DNA from: Chloroflexota bacterium
GTDB lineage: Bacteria; Chloroflexota; Anaerolineae; UBA2200; JACIWT01
Direction of reading: 5' to 3'
DNA: 64,000 nucleotides
Assembly: GCA_014360825.1 (NCBI GenBank)
Contig: JACIWT010000007.1
Coordinates: 62,001-126,000, forward strand
Shown: positions 17,892 through 58,845 of the stretch, piece by piece
Position numbering within the stretch: the stretch's first letter is position 1
How the letters are laid out: every line of letters begins with the position of its first letter
Position numbers and translations under genes: made by a program
The notes under the pieces: generated by a model
Seen by the model: only the letters and a program-made list of their open reading frames with translations
Told to the model about the DNA's origin: nothing
The model's database searches: none

Positions 17892-18953
17892 TCAGGGCAA
17901 GGGCGACCCGCCCTGCAAGAAACGCATCACATCGAAATAGGAGATCAGTAGCATAAGCGCTACCAGTGCTAACAGGCCTATGAAGTGTACGAAACCTTCT
18001 TTTTCTGGCGCGATGCGCTTGCCGCCGCGCAATCCCTCAACGATAATAAACAACACCCGTCCGCCGTCCAACCCAGGAATAGGCAGCAGATTGAAGACGA
18101 AAAAGTTGACGCTCAAAAAGGCAGCAAACCGAATCAGGCTGATGATTCCAGAACGGGCTACAATACCGGTCATCTGCATGATACCCACCGGCCCCGCAAA
18201 GTCCTGTGGGCTCACCTGTCCCTGAAACAGATATTCAAACGTCGTGGCAATTAGTCCCACCATAGATCCAACGTCCGCGAATCCTTTCGATATCGCCGTC
18301 CAAATCGGTTGGCGACGCGGCTCGAACACGTAATCCTTCATGCCAAGGCTCACTCCAAGCGCCCCTTGACCTGGCGGAGGGTTCACTCTCGGCGTGACAC
18401 GCACGATCAGCGTCTCTGTACCCCGCTCGATGGTCAAAGAGATCTCTTGCCCAGCCAATTCCTTGATACGATTTACCATGTCCACATACGTATGGAAAGG
18501 TGTACCTTCCACCGCCACGATCACATCATCAGGACGCAAGCCAGCGGCCTCGGCTGGCGACGCTGGTGCTACTTCGTGAATCACTACTTTGCCAACTGCT
18601 ACCGGTTCGCCAATTAGATAGACTGAAGTCGCTAATAAGATTGCAAGCAGCAGGTTCATAAGTGGGCCCGCGGAGAGAGTAAGCAATCGGGTAGTGAGAC
18701 TCTGGCGGGCAAAACTGTCGGGTGCGGAAGGATCTTCTTCTCCCAACATCCGCACGAACCCGCCCAACGGCAACGCATTCAGCGTGTACCTCGTTCCATC
18801 GCGCACGGCAATGGTCGCCAGGCGCGGCGGGAATCCTAAGCCAAATTCCTCCACTCTAATACCAGCACGTTTGGCAGCGATAAAATGCCCAGTCTCGTGA
18901 GCCAATACCAGCACACTAAAGACAACCACAAACGATGCTATCGTGAATAGCAT
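17892..18953 (-). CDS. rseP: Site-2 intramembrane metalloprotease (RseP/MucP family)
   Basis: A 353-residue M50 protease. The zinc site HETGH is in the first membrane helix (residues 22-26). A PDZ domain follows (about 115-190, VAPASPAEAAGLRPDDVIVAV). The third active-site element LLPIPGLDGGRV is near 290, in the later membrane part. It cleaves membrane-spanning substrates such as anti-sigma factors after a first cut. The start at ATG 18953 follows AAGGGGA; the upstream M at 18980 is less likely. The 5' untranslated region holds a hairpin and a promoter. Confidence 0.9.
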   Translation of the reverse strand: MLFTIASFVVVFSVLVLAHETGHFIAAKRAGIRVEEFGLGFPPRLATIAVRDGTRYTLNALPLGGFVRMLGEEDPSAPDSFARQSLTTRLLTLSAGPLMNLLLAILLATSVYLIGEPVAVGKVVIHEVAPASPAEAAGLRPDDVIVAVEGTPFHTYVDMVNRIKELAGQEISLTIERGTETLIVRVTPRVNPPPGQGALGVSLGMKDYVFEPRRQPIWTAISKGFADVGSMVGLIATTFEYLFQGQVSPQDFAGPVGIMQMTGIVARSGIISLIRFAAFLSVNFFVFNLLPIPGLDGGRVLFIIVEGLRGGKRIAPEKEGFVHFIGLLALVALMLLISYFDVMRFLQGGSPLP

Positions 18954-18980
18954 TGATCGTCCCCTTCCCGTTTGGAGCAC

Positions 18981-19136: not shown

Positions 19137-19937
19137 CTAGGGGTGGATGACCGTGCCACGCACTGGCTCGCCCAGCAATGCAGCGCGCACGCGCCCCGGA
19201 TGTATCCCTGATAGGAGAGCAACGCGCAGATCCCCCAGTTCCCGCACTAAAGCCAACATTAGCATCACCTTCGATGCCATGCCGCCAGTTACATCCACGC
19301 CGTGCGAGCCCGAAAGCACTTGGATGACTTGAGCGGCGTTGGCTCTCGAAATCTCTGGTATCGGTTGTGCGCGGGGGTCTTTGTTGGGATCAGAGGTGAA
19401 CACACCATTCACCTCTCCGGCCAAAATAATGCGTGAGGGATGCAATGCTCGTGCCAAATAGGCGAAGATCATCTCTGTGGAGATAATAGTGGTGCCCCAC
19501 TCGGTGTCAAGCGCCACGTCGCCGTATACCAGCGGCACCAGTCCGTGCCTCAACAGTTCTTCCACAGGCCACTCGGCCATACTTACCAACCGTCCAGCCG
19601 TTGCTTGTGCTGAGGCCGATGGCTGAACTGAGACGACTGGGACACCCTCCGTCAAGAAAATGCCAGCCACGAGTCGGTTCAAATGGTTGGCCATAGCAGA
19701 GGTTTCCGCGTAACCCATCCAATTCGTAACACCTGTCTGCACGTGATACTTGTGGGCCACAATGTGGCCGAAGGAGCCAGCGCCATGCCCCAGCACCAAC
19801 TGCAAATCAGGCCGGTTTTTCAGGGCCTCGCGTACCTCTCGCGCAAGCCGACGAGTGAGGCGACGGCGAAAAACTCCCGGCCGCCGCTTATCAGTGATAA
19901 GAGATCCGCCCAGTTTCAGAAAAACCAACTCAGTCAA
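19137..19937 (-). CDS. Isopentenyl phosphate kinase
   Basis: A 266-residue amino acid kinase-fold enzyme that makes isopentenyl diphosphate from isopentenyl phosphate and ATP. It shows KLGGSLITDK (residues 8-17), GHGAGSFGH (50-58) in which the last His matches the substrate-phosphate His of archaeal IPK, VYGDVALD near 147, and GGMASK near 221. This is the last step of the archaeal mevalonate routes. It overlaps by eight bases the stop of the gene for the small phosphomevalonate dehydratase subunit, in an operon with the large subunit and the decarboxylase. That context strongly supports IPK over a glutamate or uridylate kinase. Confidence 0.92.
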   Translation of the reverse strand: MTELVFLKLGGSLITDKRRPGVFRRRLTRRLAREVREALKNRPDLQLVLGHGAGSFGHIVAHKYHVQTGVTNWMGYAETSAMANHLNRLVAGIFLTEGVPVVSVQPSASAQATAGRLVSMAEWPVEELLRHGLVPLVYGDVALDTEWGTTIISTEMIFAYLARALHPSRIILAGEVNGVFTSDPNKDPRAQPIPEISRANAAQVIQVLSGSHGVDVTGGMASKVMLMLALVRELGDLRVALLSGIHPGRVRAALLGEPVRGTVIHP

Positions 19938-20328
19938 TGATCACCGTTTCTCCGTCTATTGTCACCCTGTCGCCGGTAACGATTTGTGAAATGTCCACTT
20001 GATCTACCATCGGGATGCCAGCAATAATCGCACCGACAGCAACGATGGGCTCGCTCTCGCTATTGATGATGGCGGCCGGGGCCACCCCATTGCGGGCTAG
20101 TCGGTAGATAATGTACGAGCCCACGGTGCTGCCTTTCCCAGAGGGAAAGACGAGTATACGCCCAGCGATGCTCTGGCCCTCCAGATCATGCCCAACTTCG
20201 ATCACACAGGCCGTCTCTGGGTCCACGCCACCCAGAAAACTTATGGGTTCGCGACTCACCAACGCCAGGCCGGATGCCCGACCGGCCTTAATCACACGTC
20301 CCTTCAAGCGTCGTTCCACAGTGCTCAT
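19930..20328 (-). CDS. Phosphomevalonate dehydratase small subunit (aconitase X swivel domain, DUF126)
   Basis: A 132-residue swivel domain of aconitase X. The conserved core is GRVIKAGRASGLALVS, FLGGVDPETA, RILVFPSGKGSTVGSY and APAAIINSESEPIVAVGAI. With the large subunit it forms an iron-sulfur dehydratase. In archaea this enzyme turns mevalonate 5-phosphate into trans-anhydromevalonate 5-phosphate; other aconitase-X enzymes act on hydroxyproline-derived substrates. The neighbours (IPK on one side, UbiD-type decarboxylase on the other) point to the mevalonate function. There are 97 bases between it and the large subunit gene. Confidence 0.9.
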   Translation of the reverse strand: MSTVERRLKGRVIKAGRASGLALVSREPISFLGGVDPETACVIEVGHDLEGQSIAGRILVFPSGKGSTVGSYIIYRLARNGVAPAAIINSESEPIVAVGAIIAGIPMVDQVDISQIVTGDRVTIDGETVIID

Positions 20329-20425
20329 GACTTCTACCTTCGCCGATAGAGTGCAACCGCCAACGGGACACTATGGTCGCAGGAAATGGATGCCGACCGA
20401 TGTGGCAGTGTGCTTGTCCTTCCCG

Positions 20426-21718
20426 TCACGGCCTTCGACCGGTCCCTCTCCATTGGCCAGTCAGCGCTGCGGCGATGCACCTCTCGAGCGGCCCGAAACG
20501 CACGTTTAAACCCAGCTGGCTCGGCGCGTAAAACGCAGTTTTCGCTGAGTTCGTGGCTAGACTTTGGAACCCCAATTCGGCCACTGGTGCAACGATAGGG
20601 CAAGTGTCTGCGACCACTTTCCCTCCTGCGTTCTCGATAGTGGCAACATAGCCACGCTGCTGGGCTTCCTCTTTCGTCTCGCGGGCAGTTGTTATCCACA
20701 GAGTTGCCCGTACGCGTTGACCAGTCAACGAGTCTGCGATGCGATGGAGAGTAGCAAGTGTGGCATGTGGACAGCCTATGTGCACGAAATCAATCTGGTC
20801 CAGGGGCCCATTCAACGCCGCGTAGCCCTCAGACAAACTACTCACCCGGACAACTCGGGCGTCAGAGCGGATGATTTCCGGCTGTGCTTCCGGGGTGACA
20901 CCTTCCACGTGGTAGAGAGCCACGGCCCCGCTCGCAGCCATTGCTGCACCTAACGCCATCAGCCTATCCAACCCGCTTTCTTCTCCGGCCACAAGCGCAT
21001 CAATCGCCCGGACTGGGTCGCCTGCCAAATCGCTCACATCGGGCACGTTTAAGTCCCGGAAATATGGCACCCCTGCGCCCACCAGCCGACCCACCAAATA
21101 ACCCAGCGCACCGAAATCCGCTTCGGATTCCACGGCGCAGTCAACTTCGATGACGTAATCCGCCTGGCGATTCCTCTCGAGATGATAACCATAGCGTGCT
21201 GTCCGACCAGTAATGGCTGCTGCCAATGCGCTCGGACCACCTTCACGGTTGGTACGGGCACCCAAAACGCTGTTGGCAAAACAGACCGCGGAAGACTCGC
21301 TCCAAGCCACATGCGCGCCTGGTTTGGGCACATTCCCAACCAGATAGGGCGTACAGGTACAAGTACATCGCACACCCATAGTCGAAAAAGTTTCGATAAC
21401 GGCGATCTGCTTTTCAGCAAAATCTTTGGAGAAACCCAACGTTTCCCAATCGCTCAGGTCCATACCCGCTGGGTTTAGCGTAGCGGGGACATGAACTCTT
21501 GCCCCCTCCGCAGCCCACTGGCGCAAGAATTCCAACCCAGCATCTCCCAGGTTCTTATAACTCACCCCAGAGATCTGGGCACTCTCGATGGGCACCAAGC
21601 CTTCCGCGCCGTATATTTTCCCCAGGGCCAGCACGATTTCCAGTGCCCGCTGAACTGCGGGCCCCTCTGCACCGGAGAGCATAGCCTGTTCTTCAGGATT
21701 TAGTCGTACGTCGCGCAT
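20426..21718 (-). CDS. Phosphomevalonate dehydratase large subunit (aconitase X catalytic)
   Basis: A 430-residue aconitase X catalytic subunit. Cysteines likely to hold the iron-sulfur cluster are in the CTCTCTPYL segment (residues 118-122), Cys146 (SSAVCFANSVLGARTNREGG) and the DTCPIV motif near 370. GRTARYGYH and the N-terminal LNPEEQAMLSGAEG match the family. It would dehydrate mevalonate 5-phosphate in the cytoplasm together with the DUF126 subunit. It starts directly after the decarboxylase stop (one base apart). Substrate is inferred from the gene context, not from the sequence alone. Confidence 0.9.
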   Translation of the reverse strand: MRDVRLNPEEQAMLSGAEGPAVQRALEIVLALGKIYGAEGLVPIESAQISGVSYKNLGDAGLEFLRQWAAEGARVHVPATLNPAGMDLSDWETLGFSKDFAEKQIAVIETFSTMGVRCTCTCTPYLVGNVPKPGAHVAWSESSAVCFANSVLGARTNREGGPSALAAAITGRTARYGYHLERNRQADYVIEVDCAVESEADFGALGYLVGRLVGAGVPYFRDLNVPDVSDLAGDPVRAIDALVAGEESGLDRLMALGAAMAASGAVALYHVEGVTPEAQPEIIRSDARVVRVSSLSEGYAALNGPLDQIDFVHIGCPHATLATLHRIADSLTGQRVRATLWITTARETKEEAQQRGYVATIENAGGKVVADTCPIVAPVAELGFQSLATNSAKTAFYAPSQLGLNVRFGPLERCIAAALTGQWRGTGRRP

Positions 21719-21719
21719 T

Positions 21720-23054
21720 TCAGAGGTACTTCGCCAGATCTACTGGCGGATAGCGAACTTTCTTAAAACGTGCTCGTTCTTTGTCCGAGAGACGCCGACC
21801 TGCTGCATCTGTCCAAGGTATAGTCGCGTCCAGACCCATTTTGCTGGTGCGTGATTTTTCCCCTGCCACATGTGTTGCCGAAGGGTCGAGTGAACTGCCA
21901 GGTTGGTTGTCGAGTACCAGCAAATCGCGGTCGGCTTGGAAACGCACCGAGAGCGCCCATTCCACATCTGCCGGGTCATGGATGTTCACATCCTCATCCA
22001 CTACTATCACGTGTTTGAGTGATGGGTGGCCACGGAAAGCGGCCTCAATGGCCCGCCGCCCATCTTCTGGCCCATGAGAACGGATTTGCACGACGGCGTG
22101 CAGCCATGAGCCGCCCCCAGGCGTCAAAAGCACATCTACGACATCGCAAACCTTGCTAACTTCCTGGAAAATAGTGGGTTCACGAGGCATGCCCATCAGT
22201 AATTTGTGTTCCTCGCCACCAGGCAATAGGGCTTGATAAATGGGAGCCCGCCGATGGGTAATGCAGGTCACTTCGAAGATAGGCTGTTGTCGCACAATGT
22301 CCCGTGTCAATGTCAGGTCGAAAAATGGACCTTCATCGGCCATTTCGCGGGTCAGGCGGCCCTCAAGCACGAACTCTGCATCGGCAGGCACTTCCAAATC
22401 CACTTTCTGACATTTCACCAAGGGCGTGGGTTCTAACGCGTTTGCGATGCCTAATTCATCTACGCCGGGGGCAGGCGACATCGCGGCTGCCAGCAAGACC
22501 GCCGTGCTGTTCCCAATGCAGAAGGCGATCTCAATCTCACCACCCGCTGCACGGAGTGCCGAGTCTGTGCCGCGTCCCTCGACAATCCGTGCTGCGAAAC
22601 GCCTCTCATCCAAGCGAAGGAGTCGGTGATAGCTCATGTTGCGCCCCAGGGTGGGATGTTTCACAATAGCAACTCCCGCTGTGACATAGGGGCCCGGATC
22701 ATCGGCAAAATGGGTCAGGATGGGCAACCGAGTCAAATCCACTTCGTGTTCGATTATCTCTTGGCAGGGACCTGAGGGGATGATTTCAGGCTCGATGGTA
22801 TTGCACAGCGCGTTCTGCATGATCCGTGGCAATTGCTCTGGCGACACGCCCAACCCCAGGGCAAAGAACTCGCGACGGGCACAAAGCCCTGCCACCACCG
22901 GGTAGTCAAAGCCTGCCACGTGCTCAAAGAGCACTGGCCGATTGTGCAAAGCATTGATAACCTGTGCCATTTCGACGTACGGGTCCACTGGTACACCGAT
23001 CCGGACCAATAGGCCCTGTTTCTCCATTTCAGTCAATAATGTTCGCAGGTTCAT
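21720..23054 (-). CDS. UbiD-family decarboxylase, probably anhydromevalonate phosphate decarboxylase
   Basis: A 444-residue UbiD-fold enzyme that needs prenylated FMN. Family marks are LTHFADDPGPYVTAGVAIVK, the RxxE-E type active-site group around LEGRLTREMADEGPFFD (near residue 225), YQALLPGGEEHKLLMG, and DEDVNIHDPADVEWAL. Ubiquinone-type UbiD enzymes are about 490 residues; this shorter form lies in an operon with IPK and aconitase X, so decarboxylation of anhydromevalonate phosphate to isopentenyl phosphate is the best inference. It overlaps the RNase Z gene by 26 bases. The flavin prenyltransferase (UbiX) is not in the window. Confidence 0.88.
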   Translation of the reverse strand: MNLRTLLTEMEKQGLLVRIGVPVDPYVEMAQVINALHNRPVLFEHVAGFDYPVVAGLCARREFFALGLGVSPEQLPRIMQNALCNTIEPEIIPSGPCQEIIEHEVDLTRLPILTHFADDPGPYVTAGVAIVKHPTLGRNMSYHRLLRLDERRFAARIVEGRGTDSALRAAGGEIEIAFCIGNSTAVLLAAAMSPAPGVDELGIANALEPTPLVKCQKVDLEVPADAEFVLEGRLTREMADEGPFFDLTLTRDIVRQQPIFEVTCITHRRAPIYQALLPGGEEHKLLMGMPREPTIFQEVSKVCDVVDVLLTPGGGSWLHAVVQIRSHGPEDGRRAIEAAFRGHPSLKHVIVVDEDVNIHDPADVEWALSVRFQADRDLLVLDNQPGSSLDPSATHVAGEKSRTSKMGLDATIPWTDAAGRRLSDKERARFKKVRYPPVDLAKYL

Positions 23055-23979
23055 CTTTTTCGTTTTTCTTGCGCATTACGCGTATCACATCAAAGTCACG
23101 CACTACCACGGTGTCTGGGAAGATGGCGCGAGCCTCTTCCTCAACCGCACGGCTTGAGTATCGCCGTGAGAGATGCGTCAGATAAAGGCGCCCCACCTCC
23201 GCCTTACGAGCCAATGTTGCAGCCTCGGCTGCCGTCAGGTGAGCGAATTTGGCGGCCATCTCAGCCTCTTCACGCAGATAGGTAGCCTCAATGACCAAAG
23301 CGTCAACCCCTCGCACCACAGGGACCAGATCATCCACCCGTCCAGCATCGCCCACCCAAGCCAATCGCACTCCAGGGACTTCCGGCCCCAATACCTGATC
23401 TGGTGTGATCGTTCGGCCATCAGGCAGAACAACATTCTCGCCCGCTACCAATCTTCTGCGCTCTGGGCCTGGAGGCACACCCAAGCGTTCGGCCTCCTCG
23501 GCCAAGAAGGGGCGATGGCCCTCTTCTTCAAATAGGTAACCGAAACACCCTGGCCCACGGTGGCTCACCGGGAAGGCATAGATGCTCAGCCGCCCGCTGT
23601 TCCAGATGAGGCCCGGCTTGACCTCCACGTATTTGATATCTAACTCCACTTCACCGCCACGTAATACCACAGCCATAAGGTCGCGAACGCGTTCCAAAGC
23701 CCAGGTTCCGCCATAGATAGTCAGTTCCGTGATCGCCTCCCACCGAGCGAAAGTGGATACCAATCCTCCCAGCCCCAAGATATGATCGAGGTGACCGTGG
23801 GTCAAGAGCACCTTGTCAAGCCTTTTGAAACCGAGACCACTGCGCAGTAATTGGCGTTGCGTACCCTCACCACAATCTATCAGGAAGCGTTGGTCTTGAT
23901 AGATCACCACGGCTGCTGATAACCCGCGCTCTACAGACGGTGCAGAGGCCGATGTCCCTAGGAAGATGATTTCAATCAT
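23029..23979 (-). CDS. rnz: Ribonuclease Z (tRNA 3' processing)
   Basis: A 316-residue metallo-beta-lactamase-fold nuclease. Residues 7-20 hold the family start LGTSASAPSVERG. The zinc motif is THGHLDH (near 60), then His in PVSHRGPG, Asp in WVGDAGR, and His-Leu-Thr in KFAHLTAAEAA, with LYLTHLSRRYS at the end. It removes the 3' trailer from tRNA precursors, a relevant point since both tRNA genes of the window lack an encoded CCA. It overlaps genes on both sides (26 bases with the decarboxylase gene, eight with the unknown gene), so all may be one operon. Confidence 0.9.
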   Translation of the reverse strand: MIEIIFLGTSASAPSVERGLSAAVVIYQDQRFLIDCGEGTQRQLLRSGLGFKRLDKVLLTHGHLDHILGLGGLVSTFARWEAITELTIYGGTWALERVRDLMAVVLRGGEVELDIKYVEVKPGLIWNSGRLSIYAFPVSHRGPGCFGYLFEEEGHRPFLAEEAERLGVPPGPERRRLVAGENVVLPDGRTITPDQVLGPEVPGVRLAWVGDAGRVDDLVPVVRGVDALVIEATYLREEAEMAAKFAHLTAAEAATLARKAEVGRLYLTHLSRRYSSRAVEEEARAIFPDTVVVRDFDVIRVMRKKNEKDEPANIID

Positions 23980-25333
23980 GTGTGCCCCTTTGTATCAGTT
24001 GTGTCAATTCCTCCACGGTCAGATGCGCTCGTACTGGGTCTGGGTGGGCCTGACACCAGCTTTCGATCTCTCGCCGGAAGCGTAGTAAGCCGAGGATATC
24101 GGTTGGATAGAGACGCGGGTTAATGCCCAGCCAGTTTACCTTATGGTTCGACAAGGTGGTCTGCCATTCGGCCATAGGCACAGTATCAAACGCGGGTGCG
24201 AAGTTGGGTAGCGGAGCAAAGAGCACCGGCATCTCCGTCGGTATTTCCGGTAACATGCGGCGTAGGAAATCCAGGCTGTCCCTGCAATTGAATGGTAGCC
24301 ACAATGGCAATAGACGGCTGATTCGGCTGGCCACTGGGTTCACTAGAGTGAAACAATCAAAGAAGACACCTCGTGGCTGGCGACCCTCTTTCTCGCTCAA
24401 TTTGCGATGGGCGCGATAGGCGAGTACAGAGAAAGCCTCAGGAGTGTTGCCCTCTAACGCCAGGAATTGGTAACCGTTTTGACGAGCGAATGCCTCACAC
24501 GCCGCCCGAAACTCCGGTAGCGTCCCCCACTCCGACTCGGGCTCAACCGAGAGCGGCAGATCCAATCGCCACCCACCAACGAATGGCGAACCCTCTGCCC
24601 GCTGCATAGCCTCGATCTCCGGTGTGCCGGTCATAAATTGCTCATCTGAGACACCGCCGAGTCCGCCCACTTGGAACGTATGTCGTTCAGCCACGCGATA
24701 TTGCCGCCACAGATAGCGGCAATCAATGAAGATGATGGTGCCACCGGGCTGCAGTCGGATGCGAATGAAATCGCGGTAGGCCTGGGGTAGGGCCAATAAC
24801 TTCATGCGGATGTGGTTAACGTATTTGACCAGAAAACGATCGTGCAACGGGTCATAATGATTCACGACCGCTAGATCGGGGTTATTCGCCAAGATGGGTT
24901 GGGCCAACGCATCGCCATGGGCTTTGTAGGTAGCAATATCATCCGGGTGGGCAGGGTCTCGGTAACTGGTTAGAAAATGCTCGGACAGGAAAGGCACCCC
25001 CAGTGCCGTTGCCAGATGGGCTACGCCGCCATTAGGCGCACCCAGGATAACCGCTGAATAGGGTCCTTTGCAATCGTGATACAACGAAACCGCATACTGG
25101 GCCAGGTTCTCCGTCCGGACTGCATGGGCGAATCGTGGATTGATACCAGAGGTAGCGACAACGCGTTCCACAGCCCAAGTAATCGCACGCGGACCGAGTA
25201 GCGAGATGAACCTCGCCGCCAACTCGGCCAGCGGCCCCCTGTCCTGTGAGGCAAAAAACTCGCCACGCAATGCAGCCGCCACAGAGCGCATAGCAATGGC
25301 TGAAGAATCGGTGTTTTCAATGTAAGCAGGCAT
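23972..25333 (-). CDS. Uncharacterised 453-residue protein in the isoprenoid operon
   Basis: I do not recognise this protein. It is soluble by appearance, with no signal peptide or long hydrophobic run. The middle shows a possible Rossmann-like strand and glycine turn (RLQPGGTIIFIDCRYLWRQYRV, residues about 205-226) followed by FQVGGLGGVSDEQFM. A segment near 90-100, VILGAPNGGVAHLATALGVPF, also looks like a nucleotide- or sugar-binding turn. The C-terminus has many Trp and Pro residues. It starts the group rnz-decarboxylase-dehydratase-IPK and overlaps rnz by eight bases. A methyltransferase-like fold is only a guess. Confidence 0.6.
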   Translation of the reverse strand: MPAYIENTDSSAIAMRSVAAALRGEFFASQDRGPLAELAARFISLLGPRAITWAVERVVATSGINPRFAHAVRTENLAQYAVSLYHDCKGPYSAVILGAPNGGVAHLATALGVPFLSEHFLTSYRDPAHPDDIATYKAHGDALAQPILANNPDLAVVNHYDPLHDRFLVKYVNHIRMKLLALPQAYRDFIRIRLQPGGTIIFIDCRYLWRQYRVAERHTFQVGGLGGVSDEQFMTGTPEIEAMQRAEGSPFVGGWRLDLPLSVEPESEWGTLPEFRAACEAFARQNGYQFLALEGNTPEAFSVLAYRAHRKLSEKEGRQPRGVFFDCFTLVNPVASRISRLLPLWLPFNCRDSLDFLRRMLPEIPTEMPVLFAPLPNFAPAFDTVPMAEWQTTLSNHKVNWLGINPRLYPTDILGLLRFRREIESWCQAHPDPVRAHLTVEELTQLIQRGTHD

Positions 25334-54809: not shown

Positions 54810-56099
54810 GTGAGCAGAACATCGCGCATTCCCGGCTTCTTTCGGCTCAGCATCGAGGAGCGGCTTGCGAAAGTCCGCGAATTCGCAGATCTCTCCTCAG
54901 ATGAGGTGGCTCTTTTGGCCACCGGTATGGGCCTGAGCCTCGACCAAGCCGATCACATGATCGAAAACGTCATGGGGACATTTCCCCTCCCTTTGGGCAT
55001 TGCGGTCAATTTCCTGATTAACGGTCGGGATGTCTTGGTGCCTATGGCGATTGAAGAGCCATCTGTGGTGGCGGGGGCCAGTTACGCCGCCCGATTGGTG
55101 CGCGAGGGAGGCGGTTTCCAAACCTCCAGTGACGAGGCCCTCATGATCGGCCAGATCCAGGTCCTGGATTTGACAGATCCTTGGGTTGCTCGCTTCCAGG
55201 TGCTTAGGGAAAAAAGTCGCATCCTGGCGTTAGCAAACCAACAGGATCCGATCATCGTCGGGCTTGGCGGTGGGGCGCGGGACCTAGAAGCGCGGGTGCT
55301 CTCTGAATCACCGGTAGGCCCCATGCTCATCCTTCACATCCTCTATGATACCCGCGACGCGATGGGTGCCAACACAGTCAATACGGCAGTGGAGGCTGTC
55401 GCACCACTGGTGGAAGAAATTACCGGTGGGCGGGTGAACCTGCGCATTCTCTCTAACTTGGCAGACCGACGCCTGGCACGCGCCAAATGCATTGTGCCGG
55501 CCAGTTCTCTGGCCCAGGAAGGTTTCAGTGGGACCGAAGTGGTGCGGGGCATCGTGGAGGCTTGGGCATTTGCCGCAACAGACCCTTATCGGGCTGCGAC
55601 GCACAATAAAGGCATCATGAACGGTATAGATGCTGTGGTCGTCGCCACTGGTAATGATTGGCGGGCTGTTGAGGCCGGAGCGCACGCCTATGCTGCGCGG
55701 GGTGGACGTTATACCTCGCTCAGCCACTGGAGCGAGAATTCAGACGGAGACCTGGTAGGCACGCTGGAATTGCCTATGGCTGTGGGTATTGTCGGCGGAG
55801 CCACGAGGGTTCACCCCCTGGCTCGCCTGGCGCTCAAGATCATGGGTGTGCAGTCGGCCCGTGACCTGGCCGAGATCATCACCGCTGTGGGCCTGGCTCA
55901 AAACTTGGCGGCGCTGCGTGCTCTGGCCACAGAGGGCATACAGCGGGGGCACATGGAGTTACATGCTCGCAATGTGGCCGTCTCGGCTGGTGCTAAAGGT
56001 GATCTAATTGACAAAGTGGTGGAGCGCCTGGTCAAAGAGCGAGTCATCCGCTTGGATCGGGCCCAGGAAATCATCCAAGAACTGCAGGGACAACTATGA
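54810..56099 (+). CDS. mvaA: HMG-CoA reductase, class II
   Basis: A 429-residue class II enzyme (bacterial/Pseudomonas mevalonii type) that makes mevalonate from HMG-CoA. It shows [21 protein letters not shown] (in part), [13 protein letters not shown] with the catalytic Glu83, [12 protein letters not shown] near 186, [10 protein letters not shown] with catalytic Lys, [18 protein letters not shown] with catalytic Asp, and [10 protein letters not shown] with catalytic His near 380. The start is GTG 54810 after a G-run. Its stop overlaps the HMG-CoA synthase start by ATGA. This begins the mevalonate operon. Confidence 0.95.
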
Positions 56100-57142
56100 A
56101 GCCCTTACGCGATGTCGGAATTATCGGATACGGAGCCTACGTGCCCCGCTATCGCCTGCCTGCAGCAGAGGTGGCACGCGTGTGGGCAGGCGGTGACGGT
56201 GGGTTGCCTGTCCGAGAGAAAGCAGTGACGGGACTCGATGAGGACACGACGACCATGGCTGTCGAGGCGGCGCGAAATGCGTTGCGCCGGGCCGGTATCG
56301 CACCTTCGCAGTTGCGAGCGGTATGGGTGGGCACGGAGTCCAAGTCTTATGCGGTCAAGCCGACCTCTACGATTGTCGCCGAGGCTATCGGGGCGACACC
56401 CGAGGTGTTGGCTGCTGATTGGGAGTTCGCCTGCAAGGCTGGCACTGAGGCTATGCAGGCGGCCATAGGGTTGGTGGGCTCGGGCATGGCCGATTACGCC
56501 ATGGTCATCGGCATGGACACGGCGCAGGCTCGCCCCGGCGATGCGCTCGAATACACGGCGGCAGCAGGTGGTGCGGCATATATTCTTGGTCCTAAGGAAG
56601 AAAGCCTGGCATATCTTGAGGCATCGTATTCCTACGTCTCCGACACACCAGACTTTTTCCGTAAGCCATACGATCGTTATCCGCAGCACGGGGGCCGGTT
56701 CACGGGTGAACCGGCGTATTTCAGACACATTACTGCTGCTGCTCAGGGCCTCATGGAATTGCTGGGCTACAAACCACAGGATTTCGCGGCTGCTGTCTTT
56801 CATCAGCCCAACACGAAATTCCCGCAACGAGTGGCTAAGATGCTCGGTTTCTCGGACGATCAGATCAAAACCGGGCTACTTGCGCCTGAAATTGGCAATA
56901 CTTATGCTGGGTCCGCGTTGATCGGGCTGACGGCTGTGCTGGATGTCGCCGAGCCTGGACAGCGTATCCTGCTCGTATCCTTCGGTTCTGGGGCGGGGAG
57001 CGATGCTTTTTCCTGGGTGGTTACGGACGCTATCCACGCCCGACGACATTGCGCGCCACAGACTCGTGATTACATTGACCGACGCCAGGAAATAGATTAC
57101 GCCGTTTACGCGCGATATCGAAGAAAGTTGCATTTGGTATGA
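56096..57142 (+). CDS. HMG-CoA synthase, archaeal type
   Basis: A 348-residue thiolase-fold enzyme that joins acetyl-CoA and acetoacetyl-CoA. The nucleophile is Cys113 in [30 protein letters not shown] carries the active-site His, and [15 protein letters not shown] closes the fold. Length and order match archaeal HMG-CoA synthases, which work in a complex with thiolase and a DUF35 protein. All three partners are encoded here in sequence. It overlaps both neighbours by four bases. Confidence 0.92.
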
Positions 57143-58320
57143 TACTGCCCTCGGGGGACGTTTCGTTGCGTGACGTCAGCATTGTTGGCATCGGACAAAC
57201 GAAAGTTGCAGAGCACTGGGAGAAATCCATTCGCGATCTAGGTGTGGAAGCCATCCGAGCAGCATTACGTGACGCTGAGTTCGAGACCGCAGACGCTTTA
57301 TACGTTGGCAATGCCCTGGCAGGTGAATTGGTCGGTCAAGAGCATCTGGCGGCCTTGTTGGCTGACTGGGCTGGATTGCGGGGCATCGAGGCACTCCGCG
57401 TCGAGGCGGCAGCAGCATCGGGTGCGGCGGCATTGCACATGGCCTACCTAGCGGTGGCGAGCGGCCTGCATGATATCGTCGTTGTCTGCGGCGTTGAGAA
57501 GACTACTGATGTTAGTCCAGAGGCTGTAACCGCCGCCTTGGCTAGTGGGGGGGATAGCGACCATGAAGCCCTCCATGGGGCCACCTTGGAGGCCACAAAC
57601 GCTCTCATTATGCGCCGCTATATGTACGAATACCGCATCGAGCACAGCGAGTTCGCGCCGTTTGTGGTAAACGCACATCGTAACGCGTTGAACAATCCTA
57701 ACGCTATGTTTCGTTTCTCGGTGACAGCGGATGCTTATGAGAGAGCGAATGTCGTGGCCGACCCGATCAATGTGCTGGACTGTGCACCCATGTCAGACGG
57801 AGCAGCAGCGCTGGTGCTTTGCCCAAGTGAGCGGGCAAAGAAGTCGAAGAGTATGCCCATCCGCATTGCTGCGTCAGCGGTGGCCACAGATCGGATTGCT
57901 CTCCACGATCGACATGATCCGTTGTTCTTGCAGGCGGCCTGGGAATCGGCAACCCGCGCCTATCATCAGGCCGGCGTTGGCCCAGAGGACATTGATTTTT
58001 TCGAGTTACATGATGGTTTCACCATTATGACTGCGCTCTCTCTGGAGGCCTGTGATTTCGCCGAGCGTGGTCAGGCCGTGCGACTCGCTCAGGAAGGTGA
58101 AATCGGGCTTACAGGACGTATACCCATTTGTACGATGGGTGGGCTGAAGGCGCGCGGTCATCCCTTGGGGGCCACGGGAGTTTATCAGGTGGTAGAGGCG
58201 GTGCTCCAGTTGCGCGGGCAGGCGGGCGATAATCAGGTGAAAGACTGCCGGCTGGCGATGACTCAGAGTTTGGGTGGCAGCGGAGCGACGGCTATCACCC
58301 ATATTCTGGGGTACCTGTAA
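57139..58320 (+). CDS. Archaeal-type acetoacetyl-CoA thiolase lacking the nucleophilic Cys
   Basis: A 393-residue thiolase of the archaeal/SCP-x type. Usual blocks are [34 protein letters not shown] (in part), [33 protein letters not shown] (active-site His) and the ending [13 protein letters not shown]. In archaeal relatives the nucleophile lies in VEAACASG; here the same stretch is VEAAAASG, so the Cys is Ala92 (codon gca at 57412). Without it, normal thiolysis or condensation through an acyl-enzyme would be lost. It may be a structural partner, use another mechanism, or rely on a thiolase elsewhere. The neighbours are HMG-CoA synthase and DUF35. Confidence 0.9.
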
Positions 58321-58440
58321 CATTCATCCCCCAGTCGGGCATCCATGATTAAGGATATATCATCTGAATCTAAGTTACGGGAAAATGCCAACTTGCGGTT
58401 AAGAGATCTATAGTAGTTTGGAAGGAGGATAGGATAGACC

Positions 58441-58845
58441 ATGGAAACACCACGTCATTGGAGATTACGGGGCCAGCGATACGGGCTCGTTGGCGAGGTT
58501 TGTGAGCACTGCGGGGCCAAGATCTTTCCTGCCCGCGATGTCTGCCCCAATTGCGAAGATATGGCGTACAAGCCCTTTCGGTTCAGTGGCCGCGGGGAGG
58601 TTTATTCCTTCTCTACAATCTATCAAGCGCCACAGGGATATGAAGAATACGCGCCTTACACAGTCGCACTGGTGAAACTCGAGGAGGGTCCTCTAGTTAC
58701 TGGTCAACTGACTGACATGGAAGCCACAGATGCACACATTGGCATGCCCGTCGAAATGGTCACGCGCAAGATCCGTGAAGAAAGCGGAAACGGCGCGATT
58801 ATCTACGGATACAAATTCCGCCCGGCGCTGTCATCTGTGCGGTAA
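58441..58845 (+). CDS. DUF35 zinc-ribbon/OB-fold protein
   Basis: A 134-residue protein. The N-terminus has a zinc ribbon CEHCGAKIFPARDVCPNC (residues 22-39), followed by an OB-fold (SGRGEVYSFSTIYQAP, APYTVALVKLEEGPLVTGQL). In archaea DUF35 proteins bridge thiolase and HMG-CoA synthase and channel the intermediate. It comes 120 bases after the thiolase-like gene with a GGAAGGAGG ribosome site, in the same direction, so it belongs to the mevalonate locus. Other DUF35 proteins pair with steroid thiolases and retro-aldolases. Confidence 0.88.
   Translation: METPRHWRLRGQRYGLVGEVCEHCGAKIFPARDVCPNCEDMAYKPFRFSGRGEVYSFSTIYQAPQGYEEYAPYTVALVKLEEGPLVTGQLTDMEATDAHIGMPVEMVTRKIREESGNGAIIYGYKFRPALSSVR

Follow-up and report, generated by a model that had tools for sequence, protein, structure and literature searches.

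Four adjacent genes on the minus strand of a Chloroflexota genome (class Anaerolineae, order UBA2200) were assigned to the back half of the archaeal mevalonate pathway: a UbiD-family decarboxylase, the large and small subunits of an aconitase-X (AcnX) dehydratase, and an isopentenyl phosphate kinase (IPK). The genes lie in a stretch of 64,000 nucleotides of contig JACIWT010000007.1 that was analysed as a whole and is called the window below. With a probability of about 93%, in our estimate, the four genes work as this back half in the bacterium, were imported from archaea and constitute its sole IPP route. In the proposed route, thiolase, HMG-CoA synthase (HMGS), HMG-CoA reductase (HMGR) and mevalonate kinase (MVK) would supply mevalonate 5-phosphate, which the two-subunit Fe-S AcnX would dehydrate to trans-anhydromevalonate phosphate. 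The UbiD-family enzyme, as trans-anhydromevalonate 5-phosphate decarboxylase (AMPD), would decarboxylate this intermediate to isopentenyl phosphate, IPK would convert isopentenyl phosphate to IPP, and IDI2 would provide DMAPP. We infer the reactions themselves, and the direction of gene transfer, from sequence. A preliminary description of this DNA had read the four genes as an archaeal back half, and that interpretation is supported by gene content, active-site residues, gene order and trees, and by searches in which the alternatives were not found.

Gene content and other routes to IPP

All four genes named in the preliminary description were recovered at its coordinates and strand with strong family matches (Table 1). 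The order on the minus strand is UbiD, AcnX large subunit, AcnX small subunit, IPK. The junctions had been described as overlaps of a few bases; this holds for AcnX small subunit and IPK (8 bp), and the other two junctions are gaps, of 1 bp between UbiD and AcnX large subunit and 97 bp between the AcnX subunits. The UbiD was the only one detected in the genome by family search. IPK carries the GHGAGSFGH motif at residue 50 and matched IPK structures, 3ll9 among them. RNase Z, which has no known role in the pathway, shares 26 bp with UbiD and adjoins it in other genomes as well (L092-L096, L099, L104, L106 and L107); rseP lies 156 bp downstream of IPK, and this neighbourhood is kept in relatives. 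The cluster is not a chance arrangement, since the same gene order is seen again in archaea and in further genomes of this order and class. In many bacteria with the MEP pathway, rseP lies between dxr and ispG. IPK is directly upstream of rseP here, and the operon may have replaced dxr/ispG in place.

Table 1. Pathway genes and conserved neighbours in the window, with supporting family matches.
Feature	Coordinates	Strand	Family matches
RseP site-2 protease, conserved neighbour	17892..18980	-	TIGR00054
Isopentenyl phosphate kinase (IPK)	19137..19937	-	NF040647, 194 bits vs cut-off 120
AcnX small (swivel) subunit, predicted phosphomevalonate dehydratase (PMDh) small	19930..20328	-	PF01989, NF003046
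AcnX large subunit, predicted PMDh large	20426..21718	-	PF04412, 487 bits
UbiD-family decarboxylase, predicted AMPD	21720..23054	-	PF01977/PF20695/PF20696, TIGR00148
RNase Z, conserved neighbour of UbiD	23029..23979	-	NF000801 above cut-off
HMG-CoA reductase (HMGR)	54810..56099	+	TIGR00532; PF00368 at G000:C7:116852-117967
HMG-CoA synthase (HMGS), archaeal type	56096..57142	+	NF003274 / TIGR00748 above cut-off
Thiolase, predicted acetoacetyl-CoA thiolase of pathway	57139..58320	+	NF004720 above cut-off
DUF35-type OB-fold/zinc-ribbon protein	58441..58845	+	PF01796, PF12172

The front half of the route, which the preliminary description did not mention, was found on the plus strand of the same window (54810-58845). 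Complexes of thiolase, HMGS and a DUF35 protein are known from archaea, and by analogy the DUF35-type protein is a predicted partner of the thiolase and HMGS. The source genome (G000), a draft assembly 97.9% complete, comprises 2.89 Mb on 64 contigs. MVK and an IPP isomerase, for which a genome-wide search had been suggested, were both located, MVK on contig C15 and IDI2 next to a polyprenyl synthase on contig C23. HMGS, HMGR, MVK, PMDh, AMPD, IPK and IDI2 are thus all encoded by one genome.

Two GHMP kinases only were found in the genome, MVK (C15) and a galactokinase (C9), in agreement with the earlier statement that the window contains none; it follows that the genome shows neither a phosphomevalonate kinase of the GHMP family nor ispE. 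The search for the MEP pathway covered ispG and, through the GHMP kinases, ispE. ispG was detected in 0 of 150 genomes of the class, and the same family search was positive in 9 of 14 control genomes. The TIGR01240 decarboxylase had no match in G000 or in the other genomes of the order. Of the alternatives raised by the preliminary description, the two MEP genes covered and both parts of a classical phosphomevalonate kinase/decarboxylase set were accordingly not found in the genome, and the archaeal mevalonate route is very probably the only IPP and isoprenoid route of the cell.

Active sites and the supply of prenylated FMN

The crystal structure of Thermococcus kodakarensis AcnX with mevalonate 5-phosphate has been reported (PMC8184944), and the best structure match of the large subunit was 7cnr. 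Compared with the T. kodakarensis complex, the large subunit retains the three cluster cysteines (Cys122, Cys316 and Cys373) and the mevalonate-5-phosphate contacts Gly51, Val52, Ser53, Asn56, Asn82, Glu141, Ser142, Lys393 and Tyr397; one selectivity position differs, Ser50 where T. kodakarensis has Ala47. Site C holds Ile and no Cys (DTCPIV), the pattern of AcnX type IIb (cluster site positions from PMC10040528). The small subunit retains SFLGG and GSTVGS relative to the TK1248 chain of 7cnr, from which the small-subunit numbering in PMC8184944 seems to be one off. The two subunits are separate proteins encoded side by side, and the pair is predicted to be a phosphomevalonate dehydratase of type IIb.

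A second two-subunit AcnX, 39% identical, is encoded in the genome (L109:9018-10744, G000:C2) next to an aminotransferase and an IlvD-like gene (both named from sequence). Its phosphate loop is different and Asn53 is absent; it was rejected as the real dehydratase on account of this loop, whose residues point to another substrate. The presence of this second pair, and the fact that AcnX and UbiD are multi-substrate families, would fit a reading in which the AcnX and UbiD of the window act on some other compound (e.g., hydroxyproline or an aromatic acid) and IPP is made in a different way. We consider this highly improbable, since the substrate contacts agree with the mevalonate-5-phosphate complex, both proteins cluster with archaeal PMDh and AMPD in trees, their genes are joined to IPK, and the search for other IPP routes was negative.

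The UbiD retains the positions that serve prFMN catalysis and metal binding (N139, R144, E200, E241 and D246; for the Arg/Glu/Glu-or-Asp network of prFMN enzymes see PMC5818171). It also carries the EGPFxD motif common to archaeal AMPDs, groups in the tree with archaeal AMPDs whose genes adjoin AcnX, and is predicted to be an AMPD.

UbiD enzymes require prFMN, which is made by UbiX. The preliminary description expected a UbiX in this genome, and in this it was not borne out: none was found in G000 or in six other genomes of the order with TIGR00421, PF02441 or a custom profile built from 22 archaeal and class UbiX sequences, many of them adjoining AMPD, and searched at E up to 10. One 10-bit match to the custom profile in G002 (E 0.7) was regarded as noise. 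Among AMPD-bearing genomes of the class, 24 of 71 had no UbiX above cut-off; these belong to several families and include G041 (99% complete) and G033 (98%). The AMPDs of UbiX-lacking lineages keep the prFMN residues, and the missing UbiX bears on cofactor supply, not on placement in the UbiD family.

Three accounts of this absence were weighed. All genomes concerned are drafts, and UbiX could sit in assembly gaps; this is improbable, as UbiX is missing from each of the seven genomes of the order (82-98% complete) and also from G041 and G033 of other families.

The second account involves CoaBC, which belongs to the same fold family as UbiX and is needed for coenzyme A. PF02441 proteins were not detected in G000-G006 (the whole order), G008 or G013, leaving neither UbiX nor CoaBC visible in these genomes. 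With no PF02441 protein found in the order, a divergent member of the fold competes seriously with a new kind of enzyme as the explanation: UbiX may exist in the order as a very divergent UbiX/CoaC-fold protein missed by the profiles, with the pathway otherwise ordinary. The undetected CoaBC of the whole order points to family-wide divergence or replacement; we give this account a little under an even chance. It is countered by the 22-sequence profile, blank in the window's genome even at its permissive threshold yet able to pick up distant CoaBC in most other genomes, and by families f29 and f37 (G033, G041), in which a normal CoaBC is kept and UbiX is still absent.

Under the third account the order would use an unrelated flavin prenyltransferase, import prFMN or a precursor, or have a prFMN-independent AMPD. 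The UbiX-lacking share of AMPD-bearing genomes, near-complete ones among them, speaks for it; cofactor independence is at odds with the retained prFMN residues, and no other flavin prenyltransferase family was found in the literature searched. We regard this account as rather unlikely. Only tentatively, then, can it be proposed that in this order, and in several further families with AMPD, an essential UbiD-type decarboxylase operates without a UbiX homologue, through another prenyltransferase, another source of prFMN or a prFMN-free AMPD. The absence of UbiX from whole lineages that keep AMPD poses a directly testable question, namely the source of prenylated FMN.

A 453-aa protein (23972-25333) that overlaps RNase Z had no Pfam or NCBIfam match. 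Its gene is not in the same operon of other genomes of the order, and it was rejected as a UbiX replacement because the operon occurs elsewhere without it.

Distribution in the class and relationship to archaea

A census was taken in 150 genomes of the class. AMPD was present in 71, a two-subunit or fused PMDh in 68 (66 of these also with AMPD), and mevalonate decarboxylase (MDC) in 78, nine of them below the curated cut-off. IPK above cut-off was found in 130 genomes and HMGR in 141. Within the class, AMPD and MDC are almost mutually exclusive: 61 genomes had AMPD only, 68 MDC only, 10 both and 11 neither (Fisher p-values for this pattern are too small owing to the relatedness of the genomes). 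These counts suggest that about half of the class probably relies on the archaeal mevalonate route.

The ten genomes with both enzymes (G007, G008, G019, G026, G045, G067, G076, G094, G130 and G144) are possibly in the middle of a swap between pathways, or contaminated. Two genomes of the window's order (G005 and G006, 82-84% complete) encode HMGR, with no PMDh, clear AMPD or decarboxylase and with IPK far below cut-off, a pattern that may be due to gaps in the assemblies or to still another route.

In family f36, most genomes have a single AcnX of ~600 aa with the large domain followed by the small (L123:7520-9310, L250-L279), 34-38% identical to the window's enzyme. The three cysteines are kept and Asn53 is replaced by Thr; in at least 10 of 30 loci, with short flanks, the gene adjoins AMPD. 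AMPD is present in the f36 genomes of the class sample, where neither a TIGR01240 decarboxylase nor a usual PMDh was found, for which reason the fused protein is probably a replacement, single-chain PMDh.

Trees were quick ones computed without bootstrap, and the relatives named in them are MAGs of Anaerolineae, Anaerolineales and Caldilineales. In the AcnX tree, the window's sequence fell in a 29-member clade (SH-aLRT 100) beside archaeal clades, composed of 28 Chloroflexota or same-class members and one long-branched Lokiarchaeota sequence. In the UbiD tree, it fell in a 26-member clade (95) of same-class sequences that also contains one Methanomicrobia MAG; Thermoplasmatota adjoin this clade, followed by Bathyarchaeota. 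Both trees have a further, smaller group of Chloroflexota at another place among the archaea. With all Chloroflexota UbiDs held together, a group named after the tree was seen, an AU test gave p 1.7e-6 and thereby rejected one single import of the pathway for the class. These results suggest that the pathway genes entered the class from archaea, and did so at least twice. The Methanomicrobia UbiD and the Lokiarchaeota AcnX inside Chloroflexota clades (L230 and L231) may represent transfer back, a binning error or a long-branch effect.

Archaeal and bacterial loci were sampled by a motif-pattern scan of genome contigs, which yields examples among the matches listed and not a count. Among the matches listed, Bathyarchaeota loci L160 and L245 have the order MVK-UbiD-AcnX large-AcnX small-IPK, which is also found in class genomes L102, L105 and L111. 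Bacterial MAGs outside the phylum with a PMDh-like AcnX were seen as well. One, from Deltaproteobacteria (L162), has a single cluster HMGR-MVK-UbiD-AcnX-AcnX-IPK; with it stand L132 and L156, and these MAGs include one from Syntrophobacteria and one from Bacillota, the AcnX of the latter branching outside the archaeal clade. Since the archaeal route is likely in about half of the class, was imported at least twice by this reading and largely excludes the other route known in Chloroflexota, the class is a good place to study the swapping of an essential pathway.

Comparison with known systems

The alternative pathway of the Roseiflexus type combines mevalonate phosphate decarboxylase with IPK (PMC3857490). 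It shares the front half and the last kinase with the route described here and occurs in the other half of the class; it differs in having a GHMP-type decarboxylase, the TIGR01240 family unmatched in G000, in place of AcnX and UbiD. The AcnX enzyme of structure 7cnq shares the AcnX fold with that of the window (E 2e-92 to its profile), which scores 310 bits (cut-off 700), is made of separate subunits and, unlike the 7cnq enzyme, has substrate contacts that follow the mevalonate-5-phosphate enzyme.

The archaeal, or modified, mevalonate pathway is known from Aeropyrum pernix, Methanosarcina and most archaea (PMC10040528, PMC11052028), and a 2023 paper calls it unique to archaea (PMC10040528). 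The route described here agrees with it in MVK, the two-subunit AcnX dehydratase, the UbiD decarboxylase, IPK and IDI2, in active-site residues, and in a gene order like that of several archaea. It differs in its bacterial host and in the lack of a detectable UbiX in genome and order; archaeal operons often include UbiX.

A literature search combining the archaeal mevalonate pathway with Anaerolineae returned no report. Through the reference list of a 2026 review (PMC13001223), which attributes an archaeal-type pathway to some Chloroflexota and cites Kanno et al. 2024 and Dellas et al. 2013 for it, we found a study that deals with Ca. Promineifilum breve, a member of the Chloroflexota, and its archaeal mevalonate pathway (Kanno et al. 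2024, 10.1128/aem.01106-24). Going by its title, that organism has the same pathway in the same phylum. The proposal of an archaeal-type route in a bacterium stands, with a precedent in Chloroflexota of which the preliminary description was unaware. As far as the title and the review indicate, the archaeal route in Chloroflexota is already known, with one relative reported, and is a rare setup for bacteria. To this the present analysis adds the class-wide census, the evidence for two imports from archaea, the fused AcnX of one family and the UbiX puzzle.
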